A stretch of 64,000 nt of DNA from Terriglobales bacterium (lineage in GTDB: Bacteria > Acidobacteriota > Terriglobia > Terriglobales > Acidobacteriaceae): positions 1 through 64,000 of the forward strand of contig DASRER010000004.1 of assembly GCA_035651995.1 (NCBI GenBank). The letters run 5' to 3'. The translations under genes and the position numbers were made by a program. Each line of letters starts with the position of its first letter. Positions within the stretch are counted from its first letter, which is position 1. Below the pieces are notes generated by a model, which was not told where the DNA came from, did not search any database, and was given only the letters and a program-made list of their open reading frames with translations. Shown here piece by piece: positions 3,183 to 44,906 of this stretch.

Positions 3183-3524
3183 CGTCAGCGGGAAAAGCCG
3201 CCGCGTGGCGCGCCGAACCAACTGCCGATCTTCTCGACGCATTTGACGGACGGCGCCGAGGATCGGCGCGAGTCGGGAATCATTTTGTCGATCGCGGCCA
3301 CTGCGCGACGCGGGGAACCGACGCGCCCTTTCCTGGCGCGGCCCTGGTCGCGGCCGGTCTGTTCATCTTCGCACCGCCGAGGACAACTCGAAGGGGAACG
3401 TTCGGGCGAGGCGCCTCGTCTAGACAGTTCGTGGCGACGTACCGGCGGGCGAGCGCCGCACGCCAGCGCGTGACCCGGGCGGCACGTCGCCACAACGTGA
3501 ATGGCATCTCCGCGATCGCGTTGC
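3183..3524. other. Intergenic region with a degenerate repeat copy
   Basis: The 342 bp between the convergent katG and CapA-like genes hold no credible gene. The segment around 3429-3498 (CGACGTACCGGCGGGCGAGC, then ACGTCGCCACAACG) looks like a decayed copy of the GC-rich hairpin repeat found elsewhere in the window, for example at 35313-35482. No T-tailed hairpin was recognised. Confidence 0.4.
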
Positions 3525-29313: not shown

Positions 29314-29439
29314 CACGCGGACGGGGGCGTCCGCGCCGCACGGTCCGTGGTGATGTGCCGGCGGGCGAGGGCGCCCGTCGCTACAACGTGCGAAGCAGTG
29401 GAGGGGCGAACACGCGGACGAGGGCGTCGGCGCCGTACG
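29314..29439. repeat. GC-rich double-hairpin repeat, copy A
   Basis: One full unit plus part of a second. ACGCGGACGGGGGCGTCCGC forms the first hairpin, a spacer GGTCCGTGGTGATGTGCC follows, and GGCGGGCGAGGGCGCCCG forms the second, ending in CTACAACGTGCGAAGCAGTG. A truncated second unit begins at 29412. The same order occurs at 35313-35482. Confidence 0.75.
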
Positions 29440-29447
29440 GATCGCGG

Positions 29448-30572
29448 CTACTTCTTCGCTGCTTTCACCGTCTTGGGCGAGGTTGATTGCCGCGCGGTGG
29501 TGAATTCCATCCAGGCCTTCTCAACATCGCCGGCGGTCGCGGTCTTCGACAGAATCAGGATGCGGTGGCGGAAGGTCACGCTCTGGTGAGGGTCGAGCGC
29601 GAAGTTGAGCGTTTCTTTGCCGTCGCTGAGGGCGCTCTGGCCGAGCGGGTTGGCGGCGAACAGGCCGTAGCCGCGCGCGTGCCAGTAGGTCGGGTATCCG
29701 GGATTCTGCGGATGATCGAGGATGGCGATGCTCACCGGCTCCTGATTCACCTTGCCGGTGAGGACGCACCAGCGCCCGCGCGTGCCCCAGGCGTCGTCGC
29801 CGGTTTTGCCTTCGCTGGTGAGGTAATTGCCAGTGACCACGCTGTTGTCCATGGCGGCCACGGTGATGGCGCGGCCGGTTGAGTCGGTAAACGTTTCGTC
29901 CTTCTTGCTGGGCAGCTCGAGCGAGCGCGCCACGCGCATGCCGAGCACGCCTTCCTTGTTGTCGGGGAAGGTGACGCGCTTGTCGAGCGCGATGAGCGTG
30001 GTGATGCGGTCCACGCTGCGGGAATCGGCGGTGCCGCGGAAGACGAACCTGGTGTGCTCGTTCAGCATCGGTTTGCCGTCGGGGCCGAGCCACTCGGTTT
30101 CGACCTCGAGTTCGCCGCTGTCGCTGCCGCTTTTGGCGCTGACCACCTTGCGATGCTCGATCGTTCCCATGTGCGGACGGTCTTCCGGCTTGATGGCGTC
30201 GGAGTTGTTCCAGAAATCAATGCCGTCCACGTTGCCGTAGTTGAACCACAGGCCAACGTGATGCGGATGGTCGGCGCGCTCGCCGGCCCTGGGGGGGAAG
30301 TTGCGCGTGATGACCGTGCCATCAGCCATCGCGAGCGGATACAGCACCGGCTTCTTGAGATTCGTCGGATAGCGGTAGGACGTGAACAGCTCGCTGCCGA
30401 TCACGATGTCAACGCGGCGGCGATCCGGATCGGGGAGGACCTGTACCGGGAGATAGGGTGATTTTGCGGCGATTGTCTTGAGCCTGGGTTTTGTCTCGCC
30501 TGCGGATAGGGCCGAAGCGCCGGCGGCGAGCGCCGCCAGCGCCAGAATTGCCGTGAGCCTAGCCGCGCGCAT
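29448..30572 (-). CDS. PmoA-like (DUF6807) secreted protein
   Basis: Protein of 374 residues with a signal peptide (ending near ASALSAG) and the PmoA-family pattern HPHHVGLWFNYGNVDGIDFW, then RPHMGTIEHRKV and GRWCVLTGKVNQEPVSIAILD. Despite the family name this is not particulate methane monooxygenase; related proteins occur in polysaccharide-degradation loci of Acidobacteriota, Planctomycetes and Bacteroidota, and their activity is unknown. Its ATG overlaps the end of the Gfo/Idh gene by 14 bp, so the two are co-translated. The pairing with a secreted Gfo/Idh oxidoreductase and a nearby GH43 supports a role in sugar processing. The His-rich motif HPHH is a probable metal site. Confidence 0.8.
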   Translation of the reverse strand: MRAARLTAILALAALAAGASALSAGETKPRLKTIAAKSPYLPVQVLPDPDRRRVDIVIGSELFTSYRYPTNLKKPVLYPLAMADGTVITRNFPPRAGERADHPHHVGLWFNYGNVDGIDFWNNSDAIKPEDRPHMGTIEHRKVVSAKSGSDSGELEVETEWLGPDGKPMLNEHTRFVFRGTADSRSVDRITTLIALDKRVTFPDNKEGVLGMRVARSLELPSKKDETFTDSTGRAITVAAMDNSVVTGNYLTSEGKTGDDAWGTRGRWCVLTGKVNQEPVSIAILDHPQNPGYPTYWHARGYGLFAANPLGQSALSDGKETLNFALDPHQSVTFRHRILILSKTATAGDVEKAWMEFTTARQSTSPKTVKAAKK

Positions 30573-32799: not shown

Positions 32800-33010
32800 T
32801 GGCGGCCACGGAACCACCGCGATTGACATGGACAGCGCCGGCTTCGCCATTCGCGCCGGCGACCTGGCGGCGTTGCCGCTGCTGAAGCGCTTAGGCGCCA
32901 GCGCGGCCGCGCGCGCGTCGGCGTACATCTACAACACGGTCGAGGAAGCGGACCGCTTCGCCGATGCGCTGGAGCGTGGCGGTGCTGGGCGGCAACTGAG
33001 ACAATTGTGA
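32795..33010 (+). pseudogene. C-terminal fragment of a class V aminotransferase/cysteine desulfurase
   Basis: The frame ending at TGA 33008-33010 reads AIDMDSAGFAIRAGDLAALP then LLKRLGASAAARAS and YIYNTVEEADRFADALER. This matches the last 60 or so residues of NifS/SufS-like class V aminotransferases (the xxAIRAG, ARASxYIYNTxEEVD region). The N-terminal 350 residues and the PLP lysine are missing; upstream DNA encodes the CxxC protein in another frame. An internal ATG at 32828 could still give a 60-residue peptide. Its stop overlaps the GTG start of the M20 peptidase gene (GTGA), suggesting the pair was once a coupled operon. The sequence differs from the complete paralogue at 13216-14481. Confidence 0.6.
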
Positions 33011-34176
33011 GCGTGGCATCGCAGCAAACCGGCGTGGCTGAAGATTTCCTGAGCGAACGGGCTGTGCTCGCGGCGCTGCAGGAGCTGGTCCGGATTCCGT
33101 CGGTGAATCCGGCGCTCGCTCCCGGCGAAGGCACGGGCGAGGGCGCGATCGCGGCGCACGTGTGCCGGTGGTTCCAGCAGCGCGGCGTTCGGAGCTGGCT
33201 GGAGGAGGCCGCGCCAGGGCGTCCCAACGCGGTGGCGCAGGTGGGCAGCGGCTCGGGGCCGGTGCTGGCGCTGTGCGCGCACCTGGACACGGTGAGCACT
33301 GCGGGGATGACCATTCCGCCGTTTGAGCCGCGCATGGACGGCGGGCGCGTCTACGGCCGCGGGAGCTACGACATGAAGGGCGGCGCGGCGGCGATCCTGT
33401 GCGCGGCGGCGTGGCTGGCGAAGAAGGCGCTGCGCGGCACGGTGATGGCGGCGCTCGTTGCCGACGAGGAATACGCCAGCATCGGAGCGCGGGCGTTTGT
33501 CGCCAAGCACCGCGCCGACGCCTGCATCCTCACGGAGGCGAGCGAGAAGCAGCTCATCGTGGCGCACAAAGGATTCGTGTGGGCCGAGATCGTTACGCGC
33601 GGCAAGGCGGCGCACGGCAGCCGATGGGACCTGGGCGTGAGCGCCATCGGCAAAATGGGACGCATCATCGCCGCGCTGGAGAGATTCGATGCCGAAGTTC
33701 TGCGCGCGCGCAAGCATGCGCTGGTGGGTCCAGCCTCGCAGCACTGCGCGCTCGTGAGCGGCGGCGAGGGCCTTTCCACGTACTCGCCCGAGTGCCGGCT
33801 CAAGATCGAGCGCCGTACTTTGCCCGGCGAAACGCCGGAGCAGGTGATAGGAGAGCTGCGAGACGTGGTCGCATCGTGCGGCGAGGAAGCCGAGATCACG
33901 CTGCTGCTCGAGCGCGCGCCCATGGTCACCTCCGACGAAAGCCCGATTGCTCGCATCACGCATGCTGCGATCCACGAGGCCACCGGCAGCGCGCCGGCGC
34001 ATTCCGGGGTGAGCTACTGGATGGACGCGGCGCTGTTTTCGGCGGCGGGCGCCGACACGGTGAACTACGGGCCTTCGGGAGCCGGCGCGCACGAGGCCGT
34101 GGAGTGGGTGGATCTGAACTCGGTGGTGACGTGCGCGCGCGTGCTGGCGCGGGCGGCGGAGAAGTACTGCGGGTAG
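33007..34176 (+). CDS. M20-family metallopeptidase (ArgE/DapE/CPG2 group)
   Basis: Cytoplasmic di-zinc amidohydrolase of 389 residues. Metal and catalytic motifs are LCAHLDTVSTAG (His, catalytic Asp), YGRGSYDMKGG (bridging Asp), ALVADEEYAS (general-base Glu pair), GKAAHGSRWDLG in the dimerisation domain, and a C-terminal His in GAGAHEAVEWVD. The family removes acyl groups or C-terminal residues from N-acyl amino acids or small peptides, for example acetylornithine, succinyl-diaminopimelate or glutamate-capped peptides. The substrate is not resolved. The GTG start at 33007 overlaps the stop of the preceding aminotransferase fragment. Confidence 0.88.
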   Translation: MSVASQQTGVAEDFLSERAVLAALQELVRIPSVNPALAPGEGTGEGAIAAHVCRWFQQRGVRSWLEEAAPGRPNAVAQVGSGSGPVLALCAHLDTVSTAGMTIPPFEPRMDGGRVYGRGSYDMKGGAAAILCAAAWLAKKALRGTVMAALVADEEYASIGARAFVAKHRADACILTEASEKQLIVAHKGFVWAEIVTRGKAAHGSRWDLGVSAIGKMGRIIAALERFDAEVLRARKHALVGPASQHCALVSGGEGLSTYSPECRLKIERRTLPGETPEQVIGELRDVVASCGEEAEITLLLERAPMVTSDESPIARITHAAIHEATGSAPAHSGVSYWMDAALFSAAGADTVNYGPSGAGAHEAVEWVDLNSVVTCARVLARAAEKYCG

Positions 34177-34196: not shown

Positions 34197-34330
34197 CGCG
34201 GGCACGCGGACGAGGGCGTCCGCGCCACGCGGACCGTGGCGACCCTGAAGAGCAGTGCTGAGTTGCTCGCGGGCGGGGTCGCCCGCGTACACACGGTCGG
34301 TGGTGATGTGCCGACGATATACCTGTATCA
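34197..34330. repeat. GC-rich double-hairpin repeat, copy B (rearranged)
   Basis: Contains GCGGACGAGGGCGTCCGC followed by GCCACGCGGACCGTGG, then a diverged middle. After that come CGCGGGCGGGGTCGCCCGCG and the GGTGGTGATGTGCCG spacer. The order of the parts is changed relative to the tandem copy at 35313-35482. Confidence 0.6.
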
Positions 34331-34339
34331 TCCGGGGCC

Positions 34340-34885
34340 ATGGCGAAGCGAGCCGCGACGAAAACGCCGAGTGCAGATCAAGCGCCTCGCTGGCTGATGC
34401 TGATCTTCACGCTGCCGGCCAAGCGCGCGAGCGAGCGCGTGGAGGTGTGGCGCAACCTGAAGCGGTCGGGCGCGCTGCAGATGGGCACATCAGGCTATCT
34501 CCTGCCTTTTTCGGCGGCGAACCAGGAGCGCTTCGAGTGGCTGGCGTCGGCCATACGGACGTATAAGGGCCAGGCGTCTGTCGTCCAGGCGCATTCCATT
34601 GACGATGCGCCTGACGATGAGCTGCGGCAGCGCTTTCTTCAGGCAAGGGCGGGCGAGTATGAGGAGCTGATGCGCGAGGCGAGGAAGCTGGCGAAGGCGC
34701 ACGGCGCGAACACGGCGGCGCGGCTGCGGCGCCGGCTGGAAGAGATCGCTTCCGTGGACTTCTTCAACAGCCCGCTGCGAAGCCGTGCCGAGGCAATGCT
34801 GGCGCGCGTCGGGCCACCGGCAGAAGCGGGGGCTCCCGCTCGCGGCGTGGTCGCGCGGCGCGATTCCAGAACCGGACCTGGGTAA
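34340..34885 (+). CDS. chrB: Chromate-resistance regulator ChrB, N-terminal part (frameshifted gene)
   Basis: The 181-residue frame matches the ChrB N-terminal domain: RWLMLIFTLPAKRASERVEV, WRNLKRSGALQMGTSGYLLP and the C-terminal helical SVDFFNSPLRSRAEAML. Full ChrB proteins are about 310-320 residues. Here the frame ends early (RTGPG, stop at 34883) while the expected ChrB C-terminal sequence continues without a gap in another frame from 34864. One T appears to be missing at 34864-34865. Either the gene is inactive, the two halves are made separately, or the assembly has an error. No chrA transporter is nearby. Confidence 0.75.
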   Translation: MAKRAATKTPSADQAPRWLMLIFTLPAKRASERVEVWRNLKRSGALQMGTSGYLLPFSAANQERFEWLASAIRTYKGQASVVQAHSIDDAPDDELRQRFLQARAGEYEELMREARKLAKAHGANTAARLRRRLEEIASVDFFNSPLRSRAEAMLARVGPPAEAGAPARGVVARRDSRTGPG

Positions 34886-35280: not shown

Positions 35281-35309
35281 GTTTCGAGTTATCAAGTTTC
35301 GAGTTTCGC
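35281..35309. repeat. Heptameric tandem array (GTTTCGA family)
   Basis: Units GTTTCGA, GTTATCA, (A), GTTTCGA, GTTTCGC begin at the base after the chrB stop codon. The reverse complement of the unit resembles the AAACTTG/AAACCCG array at 60268-60316. Confidence 0.6.
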
Positions 35310-35312
35310 GTG

Positions 35313-35482
35313 CGCGGACGAGGGCGTCCGCGCCACACGGTCCGTGGTGATGTGCCGGCGGGCGAGGGCGCCCGCCGCTACAACGTGCGAAGCAGTGGAG
35401 GGGCAAGCACGCGGACGAGGGCGCCCGCGCAACGCGGTCCGTGGTGATGTGCCGGCGGGCGAGGGCGCCCGTCGCTACAACG
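35313..35482. repeat. GC-rich double-hairpin repeat, tandem copy C
   Basis: Two nearly identical units offset by 97 bp. Each has hairpin 1 (GCGGACG-AGGG-CGTCCGC or CGCCCGC), CGGTCCGTGGTGATGTGCC, hairpin 2 (GGCGGGCG-AGGG-CGCCCGYC) and GCTACAACG. GTGCGAAGCAGTGGAGGGGC joins the units. It ends 12 bp from the winged-helix/TPR stop codon. Confidence 0.85.
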
Positions 35483-35494
35483 CGAAGGTCGTGC

Positions 35495-40786: not shown

Positions 40787-40835
40787 GCGTTTCTCCCAAG
40801 GTGATTCTACGGGTAGTTCATGGTGGCGTTCATGG

Positions 40836-40872
40836 TGGCGTGCCGGCGGGCAGGGCGCGCGCCCGCTACACG
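40836..40872. repeat. GC-rich hairpin repeat, partial copy D overlapping a gene end
   Basis: GCGTGCCGGCGGGCAGGGCG followed by CGCGCCCGCTACACG corresponds to the second hairpin of the 97-bp element. The TAG stop of the downstream minus-strand dehydrogenase (40866-40868) falls in the conserved GTAGCGGGC part of the repeat, so the element supplies the end of that gene. Confidence 0.55.
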
Positions 40873-42455
40873 ACGGCGGCGCGCGTCCATTCGCCGTCTA
40901 TCATGCGCCAGATGCCGCGCGGATTGTCATCCTTCAATTCGTCGGGCAGCCACTCGGCGGGGAAATTCTGGTAGCAGACTGGGCGCACCCAGCGGCGGAT
41001 GGCGGTGGTTCCCACCGAACTGAAGCGCGAGTCGGTGGTCGCCGGATACGGACCGCCGTGCTGCATGGCCGGGACGACTTCGACACCGGTCGGCACGCCG
41101 CCGAAAACGAGGCGTCCAGCTTTCTGGCGCAGGACGTCGAGCAGGGCGGCGTGCTGGCGAAGGTCAGAGGCGCTGGCGTGAATCGTGACCGTCAACTGGC
41201 CTTCGAGCCGGCGGGCAATTTCGAGCAGGCGCGAGGCGGAATCAGACGCGACGACCAGCGTTTGCGGTCCAAAAAGCTCTTCGTGCAGCTTGCGGTTGCT
41301 GAGGTAGGTCTTCGCGTCGGTGGTGAACACGGCGCCGGTGGCGCCGGCATGCGGCGCGGCCGCGGCAGGAGCACAGGCAGTCGCGATGCCGGTCATTCCG
41401 CCGCGCTCGGCGATGCCGCCACGATACCGCTCGGCAATGCCGGCGTGCAGCATGGTGCCGGCGGGCGTGGCGCCCACGGCCTCGCTTAGTCTTCTGGTGA
41501 ACGCGTCCAGTTCTGCGCCGCCGAGACCGACGGCCAGGCCGGGCTTGGTGCAGAACTGGCCAAGGCCTTGCGTCACTGACCTGGCGAGCGCGTCAGCGAT
41601 TTCGGGACCGCGCTCCTGGAGCGCGCCGGGAAGAACAAAGACCGGGTTCAGGCTGCCCATCTCGGCGAAAACCGGAATCGGGTCCGGACGTGCCGCCGCG
41701 GCGTCAAAGAGAGCGCGGCCCGCGGCGAGCGAGCCGGTGAATCCTACGCCGGACGCGAGCGGATGGCGGACCAGCGACTGTCCGACCGCGGGCGATGGGC
41801 CGTGCACCAGAGAGAAAACGCCGGCCGGCATTCCGCAATCGCGCGCCGCCTGCTGGATCACGCGTCCGGCCAGCTCCGACGCGCCTGGGTGCGCGGGGTG
41901 TCCCTTGGCAACGACGGGGTTTCCGGCAGCGAGCGCGGAAGCGGTGTCACCGCCCGCGACCGAGTAGGCAAAGGGAAAATTGCTGGCGCCGAAAACTACG
42001 ATCGGGCCGATCGGAATGAGCATGCGCCGCAAGTCGGGCTTCGGCGCGGGCGTTCGTTCAGGCTGCGCGCGGTCAATGATCGCGCCCACCCACGAACCCT
42101 CGCGCAGCAGCGCGGCGAACATGCGGAGTTGGGCGCAGGTGCGTCCGCGCTCGGAGACGAGGCGCGGAAGAGGCAGGGCGGTTTCGGCAGCGGCGCGGTC
42201 CAGCAGCTCGTCGCCCAGCTGCTCGAGGCCGGCGGCGATGGCTTCGAGGAAGTCGGCGCGCTGCTCGGGCTTGCGGCTGCGGAAGCCGGCAAATGCCTCG
42301 CCGGCGAGTTCGAGGGCGCGCGAGATTTCGCGCTCGGTCGCCTCGTGATAGGCCGGGGCGAGCTGCTCGCCGGTGGCCGGATTCACTCCATGAAATACGG
42401 TCGCACCTGCGCCGCTCGTTTCACTTCCCAAAATGTTGGCGCCGTGAAGTTCCAT
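40866..42455 (-). CDS. Aldehyde dehydrogenase, 2,5-dioxovalerate (alpha-ketoglutaric semialdehyde) type
   Basis: NADP-type aldehyde dehydrogenase of 529 residues. It shows the features of ketoglutaric-semialdehyde dehydrogenases: IGPIVVFGASNFPFAYSVAG, the cofactor-site GNPVVAKGHPAHPG, the catalytic Glu in VFAEMGSLNPVFVLPG, and the catalytic Cys in GLGQFCTKPGLAVG. It oxidises 2,5-dioxopentanoate to 2-oxoglutarate, the last step of glucarate degradation. The two preceding enzymes are divergent neighbours 71 bp away. ATG 42455 is taken rather than GTG 42464. The C-terminal end lies inside a repeat. Confidence 0.9.
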   Translation of the reverse strand: MELHGANILGSETSGAGATVFHGVNPATGEQLAPAYHEATEREISRALELAGEAFAGFRSRKPEQRADFLEAIAAGLEQLGDELLDRAAAETALPLPRLVSERGRTCAQLRMFAALLREGSWVGAIIDRAQPERTPAPKPDLRRMLIPIGPIVVFGASNFPFAYSVAGGDTASALAAGNPVVAKGHPAHPGASELAGRVIQQAARDCGMPAGVFSLVHGPSPAVGQSLVRHPLASGVGFTGSLAAGRALFDAAAARPDPIPVFAEMGSLNPVFVLPGALQERGPEIADALARSVTQGLGQFCTKPGLAVGLGGAELDAFTRRLSEAVGATPAGTMLHAGIAERYRGGIAERGGMTGIATACAPAAAAPHAGATGAVFTTDAKTYLSNRKLHEELFGPQTLVVASDSASRLLEIARRLEGQLTVTIHASASDLRQHAALLDVLRQKAGRLVFGGVPTGVEVVPAMQHGGPYPATTDSRFSSVGTTAIRRWVRPVCYQNFPAEWLPDELKDDNPRGIWRMIDGEWTRAAVV

Positions 42456-42526
42456 CGCTTTCACGCTAGCGGCAACGGCGGCGAGGCGTCAACTCGGCAT
42501 CGTGTATTCTGTTTTTCTTTTCCGGC

Positions 42527-44752: not shown

Positions 44753-44800
44753 TTTGTTTCCCGTTGCGCCGAAAAACCAAAAGCTCCCCACCTTTTGCGG

Positions 44801-44890
44801 AGGCGTGCCGGCGGGCGGGGGACGCCCGCCGCTACATCGCGAGCCGCGGCGGTGACTTGTTCGCGGGCGGGGGACGCCCGCGCCCACAGC
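44801..44890. repeat. GC-rich hairpin repeat, copy E
   Basis: GTGCCGGCGGGCGGGGGACG followed by CCCGCCGCTACATCGCGAGC, and then a second half CGCGGGCGGGGGACGCCCGC. The two hairpins have GGGGGA loops instead of AGGG, so this copy belongs to a variant of the family seen at 35313-35482. Confidence 0.6.
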
Positions 44891-44906
44891 GGTTGTAACA
44901 AGACAA

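Follow-up and report, generated by a model that had tools for sequence, protein, structure and literature searches.

For many families of REP sequences (repetitive extragenic palindromes), the mobile unit is taken to be an inverted pair. Canonical short REPs, as defined in the passages of PMC6006769 drawn on here, carry a GTAG or GTGG foot within 0-2 nt of a stem of 7-20 bp that is paired throughout and closes a loop of 2-5 nt, and an inverted pair of such REPs constitutes a REPIN. Passages in PMC3733652 and PMC6006769 report how the E. coli enzyme cleaves. In the parts of PMC3733652, a 2013 survey, that are cited here, GTAG repeats are placed in Proteobacteria, Cyanobacteria, Chloroflexi and the PVC group, Acidobacteria are entered for transposases with long terminal inverted repeats, and GTAG feet are reported to supply stop codons often. 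A table in PMC12306157 gives REP counts that include three Acidobacteriota, and the word 'RAYT' is absent from that article's main text. Judged by titles and the beginnings of abstracts, PMC3733652, PMC6006769 and PMC12306157 are the listed papers that bear on both REP or RAYT and Acidobacteria, and no listed paper describes the family considered below in its title or the beginning of its abstract.

The repeats in question lie in a 64-kb stretch of DNA, hereafter the window, from a member of the Acidobacteriota. The initial annotation had described them as a dispersed element of about 97 bp made of two GC-rich hairpins, comparable to REP/BIME elements moved by TnpA-REP transposases. Pattern searches of the window with up to 3 mismatches return eight matches to hairpin 1 (0.79 in shuffled sequence) and four to hairpin 2 (0.19 in shuffles), one of the four being itself a hairpin 1. 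A covariance model, R1, was built from 27 seed copies, which match it by construction. Against R1 the window gives 20 rows at E<=5, of which the best eight are all on the minus strand; weaker rows on the plus strand mostly represent these palindromes in the opposite reading. The sites are as follows.

3420..3499, minus strand: decayed copy with a longer loop (R1 34.9 bits)
29316..29335, minus strand: hairpin 1 adjoining the next copy (pattern match)
29336..29390, minus strand: GTAG-type REP copy (R1 79.2 bits)
29414-29431: decayed further hairpin 1 near the 29.3-kb copies
34205..34224, minus strand: hairpin 1, exact match (pattern match)
34244..34289, minus strand: decayed GTAG-type copy (R1 21.7 bits; too weak for the genome-wide set, which was cut at E<=0.03)
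35312..35333, minus strand: hairpin 1, the related subtype with a GTGG foot (perfect 9-bp stem, loop CCCT, REP orientation)
35333..35387, minus strand: GTAG-type REP copy (hairpin 2), top family match (R1 83.7 bits)
35410..35429, minus strand: hairpin 1, second in the tandem (foot degenerate, one mismatch in the stem; pattern and model matches)
35430..35484, minus strand: GTAG-type REP copy, second of the tandem (R1 73.8 bits)
40821..40875, minus strand: degenerate REP copy at the end of a dehydrogenase gene (R1 25.7 bits; reading frame)
44786..44841, minus strand: GTAG-type REP copy (R1 59.9 bits)
44844..44893, minus strand: weak copy around a related hairpin at 44862-44882, in the same orientation as 44786..44841 (R1 21.5 bits)

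Both hairpins are thus real, adjacent to each other at 29.3 and 35.3 kb and far above the level of shuffled sequence. At 35.3 kb, hairpin 1 (35312..35333) and the GTAG copy (35333..35387) stand in direct, head-to-tail order, and the two GTAG copies of the tandem are 97 nt apart. The proposed 97-bp two-hairpin element does not hold: 97 bp is a repeat period, seen at 29.3 and 35.3 kb only, and the unit is ruled out by conservation that spans about 44 nt around one hairpin (60 of 89 copies genome-wide). The hairpins match the annotation at 35313-35482 and partly at the other sites it named: at 34.2 and 44.8 kb they have another spacing or order, and at 40.8 kb there is one degenerate hairpin. The 34.2-kb hairpins are intergenic, with predicted genes at 33007-34176 and 34397-34885 on either side. 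Short repeats, AGTTTCGAGTT...AAGTTTCGAGTTTCG, adjoin the tandem at 35281-35309, and a similar stretch adjoins a copy at another locus (L025).

Read on the minus strand, the family unit consists of CACGnTGTAG, a 9-bp stem, a 4-nt loop and then GCACGCCACCAC. When copies are aligned on the stem, conservation runs from -10 (CACGnTGTAG) to about +33 (GGCACGCCACCAC) and information content outside falls to background; this alignment holds 60 of the 89 copies, the other 29 having failed the strict stem pattern or lying near the end of a stretch. Hairpin 2 carries its GTAG directly 5' of the stem, and GTAG, 9-bp stem and 4-nt loop recur in most of the 27 aligned copies and in those at the transposase gene described below. 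In the seed copies 97.9% of cells pair; the third stem pair covaries in 9 of the 27 (eight G-C and one T-A, against A-T) and the remaining eight of the nine stem pairs hardly vary. Hairpin 1, with GTGG and a stem of 8-9 bp in the same orientation, appears by eye to be a related subtype of hairpin 2. A GTAG or GTGG foot with a stem and loop of these sizes lies within the rule given for TnpA-REP subclasses in the cited passages of PMC6006769. A GTAG directly 5' of a short stem that changes in complementary fashion is likewise a trait of the GTAG-tagged REPs, or REPtrons, in the cited parts of PMC3733652. With this foot and stem, dispersal through the genome and a RAYT of its own, the element is a REP sequence of the GTAG/GTGG class. 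Several copies, for instance at L003:180-340 and L029:1501-1600, are closely trailed by CAGGAATTGTCATCCC..., which resembles the start of another dispersed repeat. A known RNA family was also considered and is ruled out: at gathering scores, Rfam models find only a tRNA in the window, located away from the hairpins.

The initial annotation named as its refutation a genome-wide search with only these few copies and no shared boundaries, which is not what is seen. The 3.66-Mb genome contains at least 89 copies at E<=0.03 (at least 84 at E<=0.01, and 103 rows at E<=1, from which the 14 with E >0.03 were removed before copies were placed), all told at 78 loci on many contigs and with common boundaries. 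Since 150 of 6961 first-look candidates were scored, 89 is a lower bound. GC-rich DNA yields many short hairpins, 25 with stems of at least 8 bp in the window alone, and one might suspect that the family is a set of chance palindromes in a genome of 65% GC, or an artefact of assembly. The shuffles, the common unit on so many contigs and a reversed-pattern control that matches nowhere in this genome, where the hairpin-1 core matches 18 times, make chance untenable and leave that explanation with next to no probability.

The annotation had placed the window copies between genes, and the family as a whole keeps largely out of them. All six of the best eight window copies that were tested against the gene model, a Markov model trained on stretches of the genome, fall outside predicted genes (0/6 inside), the 40.8-kb copy overlapping a gene end by its stop codon. 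Genome-wide, 82 of the 89 copies are intergenic, six lie inside predicted genes and one at an edge. The window is 87.5% coding, so about 1/8 would be expected outside genes by chance, against 82 of the 88 placeable copies (binomial p ~2e-66). For about half of the 89, a gene's 3' end is no more than 100 nt away. A neighbouring gene 3' end is present for 68 copies; the distance is at most 100 nt in 44 of these, as it is for 34% of places drawn at random from the gaps that the copies occupy, and the median distance is 75 nt for copies and 173 nt for the random places; the gaps behind this expectation come from genome stretches chosen for holding copies.

Such a bias would also be seen if the hairpins were transcription terminators or stabilisers of mRNA 3' ends that had arisen independently at gene ends and been kept by selection. 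This explanation draws further on the copies between co-directional genes, 34 of 51 of which follow the gene's orientation (p 0.024). It leaves 15 of the 89 copies between divergent genes, has no need of a conserved foot and tail, and does not account for the association with a RAYT. Terminator-like sites between 29 and 45.2 kb number 15, compared with 12.0 in shuffles (sd 3.8), which is no clear excess; none is a family hairpin, those at 29432-29448 and 44786-44802 lying beside one or in the tail of the unit. Intrinsic terminators are ruled out on these grounds, and an origin by selection at gene ends is highly improbable, although a secondary role of the hairpins in RNA is possible.

One copy illustrates how close to a gene the repeats can lie. 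The foot GTAG at 40866-40869 on the minus strand supplies the TAG stop of the dehydrogenase gene at 40866-42464, whose protein ends ...TRAAVV directly before it. The annotation was right that a REP copy gives this stop codon, but the other end of the gene is read here as 42464 and not 42455. The nearest homologue found, L181, is 65% identical, in a set of 80 loci that may omit very near genomes, and it continues for eight residues after the matching TRAA- and I until it reaches its own stop. Stops were compared in seven of the 80 homologues, over the 77 nt behind each; R1 has no match at E<=1 in the 50,758 bases of those seven loci, and the strict hairpin pattern is absent from all 80. At L198:4594-4616, GTGG and a GC-rich stretch stand 4 nt past the stop of the dehydrogenase homologue; the two together may represent a hairpin 1 relative that has decayed. 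The 40 relatives considered all belong to genera other than the host's, and only distant homologues of this one gene end were compared. An insertion at the gene end would account for these data, but the comparison is weak and does not prove one.

The window itself encodes no RAYT, as first annotated. The genome has three Y1 transposase genes, on contigs C19, C20 and C25, and the one on C19 (C19:848-1411, L033:848-1411) is a RAYT wrapped in copies of the window's repeat: one forward copy upstream (C19:841-895) and three reverse copies downstream (C19 1419-1473, 1516-1570 and 1606-1660), so that the two sides are inverted to each other. Its product matches NF047646, 'REP-associated tyrosine transposase', at 80.4 bits, only 0.4 bits above the NCBIfam cut-off of 80. 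It reads HVH at the HUH motif and has the catalytic tyrosine. In an alignment of 24 RAYTs, its own included, no variation is seen at the tyrosine (in Y..NP), NP, W, FD, R or the second HUH histidine, and at least 90% retain the first H. The sequence WQ....DH..R is spaced like the residues to which the cited part of PMC6006769 assigns foot recognition, so that W, Q, D, H and R fall on those positions, D replacing E as in some TnpA-REP subclasses described there; across the 24 sequences W, D and R never change, unlike Q and H. Among solved structures the RAYT matches only three IS200-type transposase sequences, all weakly (best E 0.00057), and the comparison with the E. coli residues is therefore one of spacing, not of alignment.

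Intergenic copies near 3' ends, a foot that gives stop codons and a RAYT flanked by copies are all features of the REPtrons in the cited parts of PMC3733652, and short dispersed palindromes linked to a RAYT are shared with the REPINs and BIMEs of PMC3116915, as far as its cited portions go. A difference from the former is the host, an acidobacterium, since Acidobacteria are not among the GTAG phyla named in that part of PMC3733652.

The C19 gene is an open frame lacking a start. From the stop at 848 to the TTG at 1001 it contains no in-frame ATG, GTG or TTG; the ATG at 936 is out of frame, and a start at TTG 1001 would remove the conserved N-terminal block. An ATG lies upstream of or near the conserved N-terminus in 22 of the 23 listed homologues, the other (L173) having only GTG or TTG. 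The missing start may reflect a recent pseudogene or an assembly error, and for want of it present activity of this RAYT is doubtful.

The lack of a start, together with the two further Y1 genes, lends some weight to the idea that the repeats are moved by something else, be it a different IS or the enzyme of C20 or C25, and only happened to land around the C19 gene. The C25 gene (L032:1321-2070) is a second RAYT (NF047646, 103 bits) and the C20 gene (L031:1489-1938) an IS200-type Y1 transposase (68.3 bits). Each is flanked by its own, different repeats, told apart by eye from the window family. Those at C25 are a lower-copy palindromic repeat with 12 genome matches, and those at C20 are other palindromes, one with a GTAG foot, with 14 genome matches, the query places being included in both counts. 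Some C25-type repeats adjoin copies of the first family, for example at C28:52372.

The same flanking arrangement recurs in relatives. At E<=1e-5, 129 of 200 genomes from the class have a homologue of the C19 RAYT; at E<=1e-22, taken to mark a close one, 33 of 120 from the family do. One close homologue, at locus L156, is 57% identical. Thirty loci, the gene's own and others, were taken as the best locus per genome, covering 30 of those 33 genomes. Upstream of the gene, 21 loci have a forward-oriented GTAG/GTGG-foot hairpin; downstream, 22 have one in reverse. Both are present at 17 loci and neither at four, which gives 26/30 with a hairpin oriented as expected on one or both sides. A recount within 400 nt gives 21/30 upstream, 21/29 downstream and 16 on both, compared with control counts of 0/28 and 1/27 at 700-1100 nt and of 0/28 and 0/26 at 1000-1400 nt; under a stricter foot rule the recount gives 17/30 upstream, 15/29 downstream and 12 on both. 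That C19-type RAYTs have such flanks, and hardly any hairpins farther out, and that the C20 and C25 genes have other flanks, argues against a different mover, which we consider very improbable.

The hairpin-1 core also tracks the gene across genomes. It occurs in 24 of the 120 family genomes, 14 of which have at least two matches. Ten of the 24 have a single match, and since the reversed control also matches once in each of five genomes, single matches are weak. Core and close RAYT occur together in 16 genomes, the hairpin without the RAYT in eight, the RAYT without the hairpin in 17 and neither in 79 (Fisher p 7e-6, with relatedness ignored and the two sets of 120 genomes taken as the same draw); a close RAYT is present in 12 of the 14 genomes with at least two core matches.

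Where this genome departs from the described systems is in the orientation of its close pairs. All 11 pairs of copies less than 200 nt apart are direct, and direct pairs are thus the only close pairs found, a difference from the REPtrons in the cited parts of PMC3733652. A REPIN, as presented in the cited part of PMC6006769, is an inverted pair, whereas here a pattern search of the 200 nt around each of the 89 copies finds no inverted family hairpin (0/89); the repeating unit here is not an inverted REP pair. In relatives, the places listed for the hairpin-1 core, capped in number per genome, include seven close pairs, all of them inverted and three adjoining a RAYT gene; these rest on one exact 16-base pattern, with neighbours picked by eye before counting, and the same pattern finds one close pair in this genome, which is direct. 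Neighbouring hairpins of any kind, unrelated ones included, are in the same orientation in 47 cases, in opposite orientation in five and unclear in two. The lineage might have shifted from the inverted pairs of its relatives to single hairpins and direct head-to-tail GTAG-GTGG pairs, a suggestion that we regard as tentative and rather unlikely to be right; on it, the RAYT here may mobilise single hairpins or direct dimers. A direct pair could be either the moving unit or the product of local duplication.

Taken together, the window hairpins very probably belong to a REP family with a GTAG or GTGG foot that was most likely spread by the C19 RAYT/TnpA-REP. The copy number, shared boundaries, intergenic placement, RAYT wrapped in the repeat and association in relatives that underlie this reading are observed, and the C19 gene's flanks, found again around its homologues, support the original comparison with TnpA-REP-moved elements. 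That comparison stands for the REP character of the repeats, but the unit is one hairpin and not two, and the close pairs are direct and not inverted in the manner of BIMEs or REPINs. We infer the C19 RAYT as mover, the cleavage and the duplication in the tandem. Each unit of about 44 nt would fold into a short hairpin on single-stranded DNA, to be recognised, foot and hairpin together, by the C19 RAYT, an HUH/Y1 single-strand transposase. By analogy with the E. coli enzyme, as described in the cited sections of PMC3733652 and PMC6006769, the RAYT would cut at the foot. It would then copy or move units to intergenic sites, often behind genes, and in this way could have dispersed two related subtypes, the GTAG hairpin 2 and the GTGG hairpin 1. 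Local duplication of adjacent units may have produced the direct tandem at 35.3 kb. Given that the C19 RAYT now has no in-frame start, the family may no longer be moving.

The element is of an ordinary kind, a REP family and its RAYT, and is well supported as such. The Acidobacteriota, a phylum missing from the list in the cited part of PMC3733652, thereby gain a canonical GTAG/GTGG REP family and its RAYT. The main interest lies in the finding, elsewhere in the genome, of the transposase that the window lacked, and in the direct arrangement of the pairs. If the RAYT mobilises single hairpins or direct dimers, inverted pairing would be unnecessary for the spread of REPs. The same kind of enzyme, accompanied by inverted pairs in some genomes and by direct pairs in one, offers a natural comparison for how REPs multiply.
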